Source of the DNA: Minisyncoccota bacterium
GTDB taxonomy: Bacteria; Patescibacteriota; Minisyncoccia; JAHIHE01; JAGLIN01
Assembly: GCA_023143145.1 (NCBI GenBank)
Contig: JAGLID010000095.1
Span: 1 to 36,484 of the forward strand
DNA length: 36,484 nt
Reading direction: 5' to 3'
Shown here one piece after another: positions 3,792 to 28,887 of this stretch (position 1 is its first letter; every line of letters starts with the position of its first letter). The notes below the pieces were generated by a model. The model ran no database searches, was not told where the DNA came from, and was given only the letters and a program-made list of their open reading frames with translations. Made by a program: the position numbers and the translations under genes.

Positions 3792-4157
3792 ATGAGTAAA
3801 ACAAGTAAAGTAGACAAAAAAGTACTAAGTGTTTTATTTTTTATCGTGTTACTATTCGCTAGAGTTGATTTCGCGAATGCCGCTTGTGGGACTGATGTTG
3901 GAATATTTTGTAATTTTATCTCGGCAGATTCTTTTTCTGGAGGCATATCGACTGTGATAAGTTATTTGTTTACTATAATTGGGATATTATCACTTTTCTT
4001 TATTGTTATAGGAGGAGTAAAATATATACTTTCTGCAGGTAATGAGGAAAAAATGAAATCAGCCAAAGATACAACATATTCTGCTATTATTGGTTTTGTA
4101 ATTTCTTTGATGGCTTATGGTCTGTTAAAAATATTAAATACTATCCTACAGAGCTAG
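3792..4157 (+). CDS. VirB2/TrbC-like (T4SS pilin-type) small secreted membrane protein
   Basis: Signal peptide, two TM helices with GGVKYILSAGNEEKMKSAKDTTYSAIIGFVISLMAYGLLKIL between/after. Confidence 0.75.
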   Translation: MSKTSKVDKKVLSVLFFIVLLFARVDFANAACGTDVGIFCNFISADSFSGGISTVISYLFTIIGILSLFFIVIGGVKYILSAGNEEKMKSAKDTTYSAIIGFVISLMAYGLLKILNTILQS

Positions 4158-4392
4158 AAATGAGTATTTATTTAAGCCGAGGATGCTTTACTTTATAGGA
4201 AGAATGTAATGTATTTTGTCTTTGCAGATAGTTTGTATGTTGTGTATTCTAGTTAATTATGATGAATAGAAGTTTGATTAAAAGACATAAAAAATTAACT
4301 ATTTTTATATCAACCTAAATACGTTTATATTAAATTCGTTTAGAGTAAGTAGTTTTGCTTAAAAGCAACAAAGGTGTTAATATGAGTGTGAG

Positions 4393-4842
4393 ATGACGTG
4401 TTTAATATATTTCTTAAGAAGTATGTCAAAAATTTATATGAAAATAAAAAAAAATTTAGTTTTGATAATATTTTTTCTAGTGATTTTTTCTTTTGCTTTG
4501 CCAATGGTATGTACCCCCAAAGTTAATGAAATTATTGGATTGGGCGGATTTTCAATTCCAACCGCTTTCGCTGTTTGTAATGCTGATTCTTCGTTTTTTT
4601 GTAGTGCTGTATCTTTTAATTCATTAGAGGAAGGAGGCGATCGAATAATTGGGATGATCCTCGGAACTATTGGTTCTATAGCGCTCTTATTGTTTATTAT
4701 TTCAGGAATTATGTATATGACTGCCGCTGGAGCTGAGGAAAAAATTACAGCGGCAAAAAAAATTCTTACGGGAACTGTAATTGGACTTGCAATCGCAATG
4801 CTTGCTTATTCATTGTTGAAGGTTTTGATTTCCATATTATAA
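4393..4842 (+). CDS. VirB2/TrbC-like pilin-type protein (paralog); likely internal start at 4423 or 4438
   Basis: Two TM helices, GIMYMTAAGAEEKITAAKKILTGTVIGLAIAMLAYSLLKVL. Confidence 0.75.
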   Translation: MTCLIYFLRSMSKIYMKIKKNLVLIIFFLVIFSFALPMVCTPKVNEIIGLGGFSIPTAFAVCNADSSFFCSAVSFNSLEEGGDRIIGMILGTIGSIALLLFIISGIMYMTAAGAEEKITAAKKILTGTVIGLAIAMLAYSLLKVLISIL

Positions 4843-4868
4843 TTTGAATATGAGAATTTTGATAGTTT

Positions 4869-5459
4869 ATGTTTTATCTTTGTTTAAGCGTAAATAATAT
4901 ATATAGCATAATGAAAAAATTTATAAAAACTTTTTTAGTCGTATGTTTTGTTTTATTAACAGCAACTTTTTTTGCTGGAAATGTTGATGAAGCTCATGCA
5001 GTATTTTTAGGTGAGCCAACATGCGCAGCTAATGATGGATGTTTGCCGTCGTGTCTTGTTGATTTTGGTGTTGATGATCCTGACTGTTTACCAGGATGTG
5101 TTGTTGATGGTAGTGCAGGCTTGATTCCTTGTGGGAGAAGTTGTGATGATGGACTGACAGCTATGGATGAAGCTGCTCCATGTACTCTTTGTCACGGAAT
5201 ATTAATGAGTCAGTTGATTGTTGAATTTTTGCTAAAAATGGCGGGTATTGCGTCGGTACTTGCAATTGCATTGGGGGGATTTCTTTATATGTTTGCTGCG
5301 GGAAGTCAAGGTTTGACAAGTACAGCAAAGTCTATATTAAAAAGCGTACTGATTGGCTTTATTCTTGTTTTTATTGCTTGGGTTTTAATTGATACAATTA
5401 TGACAACATTTGGCTATATTGATCCTCTTGGAGGCGAATGGCATGTGATGGATTGTTAG
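4869..5459 (+). CDS. Pilin-type protein with Cys-rich N-terminal ectodomain; likely start at 4911
   Basis: Signal peptide, CAANDGCLPSC…CLPGC…C…CTLC region, then GGFLYMFAAGSQGLTSTAKSILKSVLIGFILVFIAWVLI. Confidence 0.7.
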   Translation: MFYLCLSVNNIYSIMKKFIKTFLVVCFVLLTATFFAGNVDEAHAVFLGEPTCAANDGCLPSCLVDFGVDDPDCLPGCVVDGSAGLIPCGRSCDDGLTAMDEAAPCTLCHGILMSQLIVEFLLKMAGIASVLAIALGGFLYMFAAGSQGLTSTAKSILKSVLIGFILVFIAWVLIDTIMTTFGYIDPLGGEWHVMDC

Positions 5460-5734: not shown

Positions 5735-5760
5735 AATCCTTGACCAAATAGGATTTTTTT
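5735..5760 (+). terminator. Rho-independent terminator-like hairpin AATCCT-N9-AGGATT-T5
   Basis: 6-bp stem followed by T-run; overlaps the tRNA promoter. Confidence 0.5.
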
Positions 5761-5768
5761 ATTAGAAT
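5740..5768 (+). promoter_or_regulatory. sigma70-type promoter for the tRNA: TTGACC-17-TAGAAT
   Basis: Near-consensus -35 and -10 with 17-nt spacer, 17 nt upstream of the tRNA 5' end. Confidence 0.65.
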
Positions 5769-5785
5769 AATAATATTATTAAAAG

Positions 5786-5862
5786 GGGCCATTAGCTCAG
5801 TTGGTTAGAGCGCGATCCTTATAAGGTCGAAGTCCTTGGTTCAAGTCCAAGATGGCCCACCA
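5786..5862 (+). tRNA. tRNA-Ile(UAU), CCA encoded
   Basis: Cloverleaf: acceptor GGGCCAT/ATGGCCC, D-arm GCTC..GAGC, anticodon stem CGATC/GGTCG with loop CTTATAA (anticodon TAT), T-arm CTTGG TTCAAGT CCAAG, ACCA end. Confidence 0.93.
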
Positions 5863-5868
5863 TAAATT

Positions 5869-5894
5869 AAAAAATAGCCTGTAGGCTATTTTTT
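5869..5894 (+). terminator. Intrinsic terminator after the tRNA
   Basis: AAAAAATAGCC TGTA GGCTATTTTTT. Confidence 0.85.
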
Positions 5895-5920
5895 GTAAAT
5901 TATTTGCATAAGAAGTAAAT

Positions 5921-7309
5921 CTATTGTAATGACTTTATTTTATTACCATAATTTTCAATAACTTCATTAATTGTCAGTTCTCCTGTGTCTAAGTTTTTTG
6001 TTGTGAGATAATCTATCATGTCAACTAAAATCTGGTCGCTTCTTTCGCTATCTGGATGTACCCAGCTTTTTGTAGTTAAAACTTGACTTGCAAAAATACT
6101 TCTTGCTCCATCATTTTTATCGCGTTGTTCCTGTGCGAGTTGCAATATTGCAGATGGCCTATTGGTTTCATCTAAGTAGAGTTTAGCATTTTCTTCTTTA
6201 GCTGCGAAACTCAAAAATTCCCAGGCTAGAGAATAACAGTCTATTTTTTCTTTTGTTACACATGGTGCTTTAGCTGGTACAACTGGAGCCCAGTATTCTG
6301 CGTAATTGACTTTATTATTTTCGTCGAGTTGAGGAACTGGAGCAATTTTATAATTAATTTCTCCTTGCGTTTTCTCTTCAATATTTTCTATCATTCGTGT
6401 ATAGTTTATCATCATTGCAGCTTTATTTTGTGTAAACGCATCTATGGAATACATCCAGTCCTTGTCCCAGGTATAATATCTTTTGGATGGGTCAGTAAAG
6501 CTTGTATAATATTTTATGGCATTTGTACTTCCTGCATTTGTAAACGATAGGGGCCTTTCGTCGTTCTTGTTTAAATTATTTTGTATAACTAGGAGCATAA
6601 GAATATCTTGGCTTCTGTTAACATTCCACCCTCCTCCAAACGCAGCTCCTGCTATTTCTAGTTGTTTGATATTTGTATTATTGATGCCTGTAGCTATATT
6701 CTTTTCTTCCTCATTAAAGCGACTTAATTTTTCAACATAATTTTTAAATTCGTCCCAGTTCTCAGGAGGTTTTGTATATCCTGCCTGAAGGAACATATCT
6801 TCATTATAGAATAGTGCAAGGGTATCAACATAAAGTGGAAGTGAGTATATCTTTCCGTCTGAAGTTGTAAAATCATCAACAGCAACTCTGACAAAGGTAT
6901 TTTTGAATTGTGCTAAAGTTGCCATTTCTTCGGGAGCTGGTAAAAGGTCTTCTTGATATTCTGGAAGCCAGGAATTAAATAACATAAAAATATTAGGACC
7001 TTTTTCATCGTATTGTAATTCTTTTACCTCGTTTTGATAATTTCCAGACAAGGCTTTATAGTCTATTGTTACATCTAGGAACCCATTTTGCTCTAGTTTT
7101 TTGTAAGCATTGAACTTATCGAAAACTTCCTGCCAGTCTCTTTGAGTATCAAAGGGTCCTACAAAGTTTAGGGTTACTTTCGGTTGGTTTTCTGTTTGCT
7201 TTTTTGAAAATGGACATTTTTTTAGTGGCGGACAACTTATAACAAACCAAGCAATAAATAAAAGAAAAAGAAGAATAAATGATATGAGAATAATTTTTGG
7301 TTTAGTCAT
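5921..7309 (-). CDS. Extracellular solute-binding protein (family 1), probable lipoprotein
   Basis: 462 aa; N-terminal hydrophobic segment with lipobox-like VISC; YSLPLYVDTLALFYNEDMF, GEINYKIAPVPQLDENN typical of sugar-type SBPs. Confidence 0.85.
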   Translation of the reverse strand: MTKPKIILISFILLFLLFIAWFVISCPPLKKCPFSKKQTENQPKVTLNFVGPFDTQRDWQEVFDKFNAYKKLEQNGFLDVTIDYKALSGNYQNEVKELQYDEKGPNIFMLFNSWLPEYQEDLLPAPEEMATLAQFKNTFVRVAVDDFTTSDGKIYSLPLYVDTLALFYNEDMFLQAGYTKPPENWDEFKNYVEKLSRFNEEEKNIATGINNTNIKQLEIAGAAFGGGWNVNRSQDILMLLVIQNNLNKNDERPLSFTNAGSTNAIKYYTSFTDPSKRYYTWDKDWMYSIDAFTQNKAAMMINYTRMIENIEEKTQGEINYKIAPVPQLDENNKVNYAEYWAPVVPAKAPCVTKEKIDCYSLAWEFLSFAAKEENAKLYLDETNRPSAILQLAQEQRDKNDGARSIFASQVLTTKSWVHPDSERSDQILVDMIDYLTTKNLDTGELTINEVIENYGNKIKSLQ

Positions 7310-26768: not shown

Positions 26769-27134
26769 ATGTATACAAAAAAAGTAATCCAGCATTTCAC
26801 AAATCCTCATAACTATGGTAAAATGGAACAAGCTGATGCAGTAGGGGCGGCAGGTAATCCAGTTTGTGGAGATTTAATGAAAATATATATCAAAGTGCAG
26901 GATGGGATGATTGAAAATATTTCATTTGAAACTTTGGGATGTGCGGCAGCAATTGCTACTTCTTCAATGGTGACAGATATTGCGAAGGGAAAATCATTGG
27001 ATGAAGCGATGAAAATTACGAATAGTGATGTGGCAAAAAATCTAGAAGGGCTTCCGCCAATGAAAATGCATTGTTCAAACCTGGCCGCTAGTGCTTTGCA
27101 CAAAGCAATCGAAAACTATAAAAATAAGAAATAA
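26769..27134 (+). CDS. IscU/NifU-N type iron-sulfur cluster assembly scaffold
   Basis: YTKKVIQHFTNPHNYGKM, GNPVCGDLMKIYI, TLGCAAAIATSSM, KMHCSNLAASAL (three conserved Cys). Confidence 0.9.
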   Translation: MYTKKVIQHFTNPHNYGKMEQADAVGAAGNPVCGDLMKIYIKVQDGMIENISFETLGCAAAIATSSMVTDIAKGKSLDEAMKITNSDVAKNLEGLPPMKMHCSNLAASALHKAIENYKNKK

Positions 27135-27144
27135 GAAAATTGAA

Positions 27145-27573
27145 ATGAAAATCTTAATCAATAGGAAAGTACTTCTTTTTATGATGATGTTTTCTTTTTT
27201 TGTATTTGGTTGGATTTCTTCTAGCGATATAAATGTTATTAGTGTGAATGTGGCGAGTGCTGGATGTGTTGTAGATGCAGATTGCGGGGCAGGAGAAACA
27301 ATATTTAATTGTAAAGCAGATTGCTTGCCTGCTATCGTTCCTGATAAGGATATTGATGATATTATAAAAGATATAACTAGATGGACCTTGGGGCTAGGGT
27401 TATCGCTCTCAGTTATATTTCTTGTTTGGGGCGGTATAAGTTACGTTGGTGCTTCAGGAGATGCACAAAAAGCAGAAACTGCAAAAAAGGTTATTAAATA
27501 TTCAATGTTCGGTGCTATTGTAATGGGTCTTTCATATGCTTTAATAGTTGTAGTAGATACGATATTTACTTAA
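27145..27573 (+). CDS. VirB2/TrbC-like pilin-type protein with short Cys-rich N-terminus
   Basis: Signal peptide; AGCVVDADCGAGETIFNCKADC; GGISYVGASGDAQKAETAKKVIKYSMFGAIVMGLSYALIVVV. ORF-track start 27091 overlaps the upstream gene. Confidence 0.75.
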   Translation: MKILINRKVLLFMMMFSFFVFGWISSSDINVISVNVASAGCVVDADCGAGETIFNCKADCLPAIVPDKDIDDIIKDITRWTLGLGLSLSVIFLVWGGISYVGASGDAQKAETAKKVIKYSMFGAIVMGLSYALIVVVDTIFT

Positions 27574-27580
27574 GTAATTT

Positions 27581-27598
27581 CTGCAAAACGCAGTTTTT
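27581..27598 (+). terminator. Terminator-like hairpin CTGC-AAAAC-GCAG-T5
   Basis: Short stem plus T-run right after the pilin gene. Confidence 0.5.
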
Positions 27599-27599
27599 G

Positions 27600-27624
27600 T
27601 CATTCCTGTGAAGATGGGAATCAA
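27600..27624. repeat. dRS3-like hairpin repeat remnant (TCATTCCTGTGAAGATGGGAATC)
   Basis: Resembles the widespread GTCATTCCCGCGAAAGCGGGAATC intergenic repeat. Confidence 0.45.
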
Positions 27625-27722
27625 GGATTTAACTCAAAAAATGAATTCTAAGGTTAAAATTTATTAGTTTATCAGAGTCTTCTTGATTTAATTTGACTTT
27701 ATATTTAAAAAATGAGATAATT

Positions 27723-28070
27723 ATGTTAATGAAAAGGACAAGTCTAAAAATATTATATATATTACTGATACTTCAATTTTTTGGAATTGCAAATGTTGTT
27801 AATGCATCAATACTCCCTGATGTCACTGGTCTTGGTTTGTCTGGTGATATGGAAGGTATGGCATTTAAGTTGACTAATTGGTTATTGGGATTTGGATTGT
27901 CATTTTCTGTGATTGCTTTAATTTGGGGAGGTATAAACTACATTGGATCATCGGGAGATGCACAAAAATCAGAGCTTGCCAAAAAAATTATTTATTATGC
28001 TATAATGGGTGTTGTGGTTATAGGTCTGGCTTTTTCCATAGTAGTAGTTATTCGAGGATTGTTCTCATGA
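27723..28070 (+). CDS. VirB2/TrbC-like pilin-type protein
   Basis: GGINYIGSSGDAQKSELAKKIIYYAIMGVVVIGLAFSIVVVIRGLF; close paralog of 27145-27573. Confidence 0.75.
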   Translation: MLMKRTSLKILYILLILQFFGIANVVNASILPDVTGLGLSGDMEGMAFKLTNWLLGFGLSFSVIALIWGGINYIGSSGDAQKSELAKKIIYYAIMGVVVIGLAFSIVVVIRGLFS

Positions 28071-28119
28071 TAATATTGATACATTTATTTTATTTTTTTA
28101 TTAATTAAACATATTATTT

Positions 28120-28479
28120 ATGAAAGTATTAAGTAAAAAATATAGTATAACATTGTTTGTGTTCCTTTTAGCAAATTATGCGAATACGGCACTGGCAGTT
28201 ACATTTGATAGTGGTTTTGTTGATCCTACACCACCAGCTGGTGCCAGCACTAGTTCTTTTGATGTCATACTTCATGATATCACAAATTGGATATTGGGGT
28301 TTGCAGCAGCAATTTCGGTTTTGATGATTATCATGGGTGGCGTCATATATATGACTTCAGCAGGGGATCAAACTAAGGCAGATTCGGGCAAAAAGACAGT
28401 CACAAATGGAATCGCTGGTTTAGTTATAGTAGGTCTTGCATATGCAATCGTTGTAATGATTATCTCTATGGTAACCTAA
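28120..28479 (+). CDS. VirB2/TrbC-like pilin-type protein
   Basis: GGVIYMTSAGDQTKADSGKKTVTNGIAGLVIVGLAYAIVVMI. Confidence 0.75.
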   Translation: MKVLSKKYSITLFVFLLANYANTALAVTFDSGFVDPTPPAGASTSSFDVILHDITNWILGFAAAISVLMIIMGGVIYMTSAGDQTKADSGKKTVTNGIAGLVIVGLAYAIVVMIISMVT

Positions 28480-28545
28480 ATTAAGTAAAATATTTTCAAA
28501 AAATATATAAATAAATTAATATAATCTTGAAAGGAGGTGAAACGA

Positions 28546-28887
28546 ATGAAAAATTTAATAAAAACTCTTTCAGTTGCTTCTGTCAGTGCTTATGCTTTGA
28601 CTATGAGCACAATTGCTTCAGCACAGTGGGGAACTTCTACAAATCCAGGAGGAATGTCAAGTGATCTTGAAGCTACAGTTTTAACTCTTATTGAATGGAT
28701 TCTAGCATTTGTGGCATTGATTGCTACTTTAATGCTGATTTGGGGAGGCGTACAATATCTTACTGCAGGTGGTAATGATGATCAGGTTGGAAATGCAAAG
28801 AAGACTCTTTCTTATGGAGTTATAGGACTTGTAATCGTAGGTCTTTCTTACGCTATTGTTAGGGTTATTCTTGAAATTATTGTATAG
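28546..28887 (+). CDS. VirB2/TrbC-like pilin-type protein, perfect Shine-Dalgarno
   Basis: AAGGAGGTGA at 28531-28540 then ATG 28546; signal peptide …IASAQWG; GGVQYLTAGGNDDQVGNAKKTLSYGVIGLVIVGLSYAIVRVI. Confidence 0.8.
   Translation: MKNLIKTLSVASVSAYALTMSTIASAQWGTSTNPGGMSSDLEATVLTLIEWILAFVALIATLMLIWGGVQYLTAGGNDDQVGNAKKTLSYGVIGLVIVGLSYAIVRVILEIIV

Follow-up and report, generated by a model that had tools for sequence, protein, structure and literature searches.

A tRNA-Ile with a UAU anticodon as the probable AUA reader of a Candidatus Moranbacteria genome without detectable tilS

Main finding

The window, which is the whole contig C164 (36,484 nucleotides) of a Candidatus Moranbacteria (Patescibacteria) draft genome (1.28 Mb, 168 contigs, 92% complete), carries a gene for a tRNA-Ile with a UAU anticodon. 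This tRNA is very probably the cell's AUA reader: it would be charged by a type-2 IleRS, pair through U34 with A3 of the codon and replace the TilS / tRNA-Ile2(CAU, lysidine) system. Direct AUA decoding, proposed in an earlier note made from the sequence alone, is supported, since neither tilS nor tRNA-Ile2(CAU) was found, the exclusion between UAU tRNA and tilS is strict, and AUA codons never face methionine in the alignments of GyrA and FtsH.

The tRNA-Ile(UAU) gene

An intact tRNA-Ile(UAU) gene is present in the genome (Table 1). It is the sole tRNA of the window, called by ARAGORN at exactly the position given earlier, and scores 69.3 bits against RF00005 of Rfam (gathering score, 29; E, 2.8e-13). 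The anticodon loop reads C-T-T-A-T-A-A, as had been noted; the discriminator base is A (5859) and CCA is encoded (5860-5862). The strand folds into a cloverleaf (z = -3.3; 0/200 shuffles equally stable). Across nine homologous UAU tRNAs of the phylum, 21/21 cloverleaf pairs are kept; 13 of the 21 show two-sided changes, 2-3 with a slid partner.

Table 1. Features at and around the tRNA-Ile(UAU) gene
Feature	Coordinates	Strand	Evidence
tRNA-Ile(UAU) gene	5786..5862	+	ARAGORN; RF00005; fold; covariation
Anticodon TAT (U34 A35 U36), loop CTTATAA	5820..5822	+	Sequence; position 35 in ARAGORN output; invariant among family homologues
Promoter-like site TTGACC-17-TAGAAT (a)	5740..5768	+	10/12 match to the sigma-70 consensus
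Intrinsic-terminator-like hairpin, 12 pairs, then T-rich tail (b)	5868..5895	+	Scan
T4SS-pilin-like protein, conserved upstream neighbour of the tRNA (c)	4869..5459	+	PF18895, 24.2 bits, slightly below cut-off; synteny
Extracellular solute-binding protein, conserved downstream neighbour of the tRNA	5921..7309	-	PF13416/PF01547; synteny

a The consensus scan found 4 promoter-like sites where shuffles lead one to expect 2.7, so that this site counts as weak evidence. b Terminator-like hairpins are rare by chance (2 found, one per strand; 0.2 expected). The hairpin 3' of the tRNA is also kept in the sister genomes G001 and G003. c Several small T4SS-pilin-like proteins are encoded in two tandem groups of the window (3792-5459 and 27091-28887). 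The member searched with profiles is 4869-5459 only.

The two protein genes that flank the tRNA are common to most members of the family. A methyltransferase-like protein and gyrA also lie downstream in several family genomes, and no mobile genes adjoining the tRNA were found in the synteny comparison across the family. Identity outside the anticodon reaches 97% among family and order members. Because neighbours are shared and identity is high, the gene is probably inherited vertically within Moranbacteria and not carried by a mobile element.

Among tRNAs with other anticodons, the closest is a tRNA-Ile(GAU), with 82% identity when the anticodon is left out. This bears out the earlier remark that the body resembles tRNA-Ile(GAU), from which it is probably derived. 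The UAU tRNAs of other families have the loop CTTATAC or CTTATAT, i.e., C or U at position 38 versus A38 here; such tRNAs are found in many Patescibacteria (e.g., loci L192, L193 and L195). The UAU tRNA of one genome (G025) is 80% identical to a tRNA-Val(UAC), versus 81% to the closest UAU tRNA. Because the comparison spans 74 bases, it only suggests that UAU tRNAs arose separately from different tRNA bodies.

Absence of tilS and of tRNA-Ile2(CAU)

No match to TIGR02432 (tilS) above the cut-off was found in the genome (92% complete). The same holds for all 15 family members searched, among them seven of 98-100% completeness. The same search of control genomes gave ten matches above the cut-off. 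The only match of the genome to the N-type ATP pyrophosphatase of TilS is weak and corresponds to MnmA according to NCBIfam; it was rejected as tilS. The weak matches of relatives (18-35 bits) were likewise rejected, those that were translated appearing by eye to be MnmA, sulfurtransferase-like or asparagine-synthase-like proteins.

The tRNAs were counted from Rfam hits retrieved as loci, of which the genome has 34. ARAGORN named 33 of these 34; the hit left out is cut at the end of contig C95. Three tRNAs have an NAU anticodon: tRNA-Ile(UAU), initiator tRNA-Met and elongator tRNA-Met. No tRNA-Ile2(CAU) is found among the 33 named tRNAs of this 92% complete genome. The elongator tRNA-Met is like the Met tRNAs of relatives that carry tilS and unlike their Ile2(CAU) tRNAs, which were told from Met by eye through their likeness to the E. 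coli tRNA. The presence of both tilS and tRNA-Ile2(CAU) had been put forward as evidence that would overturn direct decoding; both were sought and neither was found, the two CAU tRNAs being the initiator and the elongator Met. This absence holds at the completeness of the assemblies.

The tRNA-Ile(GAU) also seemed to be missing from the genome, but this was rejected. Contig C134 ends less than 80 bases from tRNA-Ala(UGC), and its final bases, GGTTCGAGTCCAGGCACGCCCACA, differ by one base from the 3' part of the Ile(GAU) of a sister genome, GGTTCGAGTCCAGGTACGCCCACA. Since an Ile(GAU)-like 3' end sits at the contig edge, the gene is taken to be truncated there. In relatives (G001), the GAU tRNA is a gene of its own, and its body differs from that of the UAU tRNA.

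Distribution in the class and the phylum

In the class sample (288 genomes, at least 90% complete), tilS is found in 33 genomes, the UAU pattern in 204 and both in none (lists compared by eye). In the phylum sample (289 genomes), the figures are 68 for tilS, 180 for the UAU tRNA and 0 for both, after removal of one genome (G313) from 181 raw matches. This genome combines tilS with a chance match to the UAU pattern, where ARAGORN finds no tRNA. Fisher tests of the exclusion (1e-20 for the class; 1e-35 for the phylum, G313 included) ignore kinship and show no more than that the pattern did not arise by accident. Kinship was addressed in part with a 56-row IleRS tree, on which at least three changes of the tilS state are seen. 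TilS and tRNA-Ile2 are present in sister families of the class, and one family (f104) includes both states: tilS and no UAU tRNA in some genera, the UAU tRNA and no tilS in one genus (G387, G428, G540).

Some tilS-negative genomes give no match to the UAU pattern (51/255 in the class and 41/221 in the phylum, i.e., 18-20%), including one from the same family as the window (G011). Limited sensitivity probably accounts for much of this, because the pattern is strict and the same approach misses about one-third of the elongator Met tRNAs (rough count, by eye). Some of the genomes without either match may decode AUA in another way.

The earlier note placed tRNA-Ile(UAU) in a few lineages. This agrees with the literature, in which it is reported from 17 bacterial genomes, including Bifidobacterium, Mycoplasma and Neorickettsia (PMC8450103), and from 19 species in tRNADB-CE (PMC4013482). 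The spread was nevertheless understated, since most sampled Patescibacteria have this tRNA.

IleRS and wobble modification

The IleRS of the genome is represented by its N-terminal 812 residues (G000:C90; locus L134, 2-2437, minus strand). It scores 545 bits with 8c8u (the type-2 IleRS of Priestia), 532 bits with 1ile (Thermus) and about 501 bits with the yeast enzyme 7d5c, versus 211-216 bits with S. aureus-type enzymes. Judged by these scores, it is of type 2 (eukaryote-like) and not of the Mycoplasma type. Mycoplasma mobile reportedly has an adapted bacterial-type IleRS. The trait that defines this subtype, a type-1 IleRS with an altered anticodon-recognition residue, was not found here, the IleRS being assigned to type 2. 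A type-2 IleRS is compatible with a predicted role as the charger of the UAU tRNA and may have allowed the switch to it. It is not confined to genomes with the UAU tRNA, since a tilS-bearing relative has one too.

A histidine-phosphatase domain (PF00300) is inserted in the catalytic domain of this IleRS, before KMSKS (L134). The same insert is found in 8/8 other tested class members whose IleRS profile hit breaks at this point (L092, L096-L099, L101, L106, L107). Such breaks occur often in genomes without tilS and seldom in those that carry it. Despite these strong raw counts, a link between the insert and the loss of tilS is not claimed, because they depend on descent and provide three independent contrasts only on the IleRS tree. 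In a relative from the same order (G015; L091, residues 225-343), a NUDIX domain is inserted instead. No paper on a histidine-phosphatase insert in IleRS was found in the literature search.

MnmG is absent in 39/39 relatives, the search having matched it in 9/10 bacterial control genomes; MnmA is present in the genome. A full-length Elp3 is also encoded (G000:C133:7698-9278; 592 bits); it contains a radical-SAM domain and weakly matches an acetyltransferase. Full-length Elp3 is likewise found in nearly all of the order. Elp3 makes cm5U34 and probably works alone in numerous bacteria (PMC13315578). Since full-length Elp3 occurs in an order without MnmG, these gene contents suggest that it supplies the wobble-uridine modification in place of MnmEG. 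With cm5U alone, pairing with G is not obviously forbidden.

AUA decoding and alternative explanations

AUA accounts for 331/1053 Ile codons (31%) in 10000 codons of the window. At 17 aligned AUA sites in GyrA and FtsH, the facing residue is I at 8, L at 3, V at 2 and others at 4. Usage and these sites point indirectly to a codon that is in use and read as isoleucine. The tRNA-Ile(UAU) would be expressed, charged with isoleucine by the eukaryote-like type-2 enzyme and read AUA through ordinary U34-A3 pairing, taking over from tRNA-Ile2(CAU, lysidine). Reading of AUG would be limited by the ribosome, by competing tRNA-Met or by a modification of U34, for which cm5U made by Elp3 is a candidate.

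Other explanations were weighed. The UAU tRNA could be an accessory or mobile copy, AUA being mainly read by a TilS-modified tRNA-Ile2(CAU) lost from an assembly that is merely 92% complete. This is very improbable: tilS is found in 0/15 family members, despite the near-complete genomes among them, the neighbours are conserved without mobile genes beside the tRNA, and UAU and tilS are strictly exclusive. A reassigned or ambiguous AUA (Met or Ile/Met) would fit the lack of tilS and the ability, in principle, of U34 to pair with both A and G. It is more improbable still, since a separate elongator Met(CAU) exists and M is faced at 0/17 AUA sites versus 14/35 AUG sites of GyrA and FtsH, although the sample is small.

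The anticodon hinges on one base of a metagenome assembly, and T34 could be an error for G34. This can practically be dismissed, as other members of the family and order also have T34 in this tRNA body, and the family-level tRNA pattern gave an exact arm match in 12 separately assembled GTDB contigs (labelled Candidatus Moraniibacteriota, Paceibacterota, Parcubacteria, Patescibacteria or bacterium). The GAU tRNA has, in addition, a different body in G001 and is also seen at a contig edge here. Recurrence in independent assemblies and conserved neighbours therefore make an assembly error, raised earlier as a way in which the claim could fail, very unlikely. Direct decoding by tRNA-Ile(UAU) is thus retained.

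A wider scenario is put forward tentatively, and the odds are judged to lie slightly against it. UAU decoding would be the majority state of Patescibacteria, gained or lost several times on a background of type-2 IleRS and, in the order of the window, without MnmG and with Elp3. AUA would be discriminated from AUG by a state of U34 or a property of the ribosome, either of them new to bacteria, and the loops with 38A and with 38C/U would reflect separate origins.

TilS is generally regarded as an essential enzyme that almost all bacteria possess. Should the majority of a very large phylum manage without TilS, the standard account of how bacteria decode AUA would have to be revised. Sister families that retain TilS would then be a natural experiment on AUA versus AUG discrimination with a plain U34. 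For annotation, a missing tilS in these genomes should not count as incompleteness.

Comparison with known systems

Direct AUA reading by tRNA-Ile(UAU) is known in kind and appears to be new in extent. Among open-licence PMC papers, none was found on the spread of the UAU tRNA in Patescibacteria, and the matches for TilS in Patescibacteria were spurious only. Bacterial TilS / tRNA-Ile2(LAU) serves the same codon; it is absent here and never occurs alongside the UAU tRNA in the survey. Mycoplasma mobile (Taniguchi et al. 2013) shares the UAU anticodon, which was shown to be unmodified in that species, the lack of tilS and direct AUA reading (PMC4013482). It differs from the present genome, which has an IleRS assigned to type 2, lacks MnmG and encodes Elp3. 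In Bifidobacterium, Mycoplasma and Neorickettsia, tRNA-Ile3(UAU) likewise replaces Ile2(CAU) (PMC8450103); these belong to other phyla, whereas UAU is here the majority state of the phylum sample. The same replacement is found in Nanoarchaeum and Korarchaeum (PMC8450103), but these are Archaea, in which the usual system is agmatidine/TiaS. In Parcubacteria, truA is lost and tRNA positions 38-40 are altered (PMC4508563). There, as proposed here, a changed tRNA sequence makes a modification enzyme dispensable in reduced genomes, although the enzyme and the positions are different.
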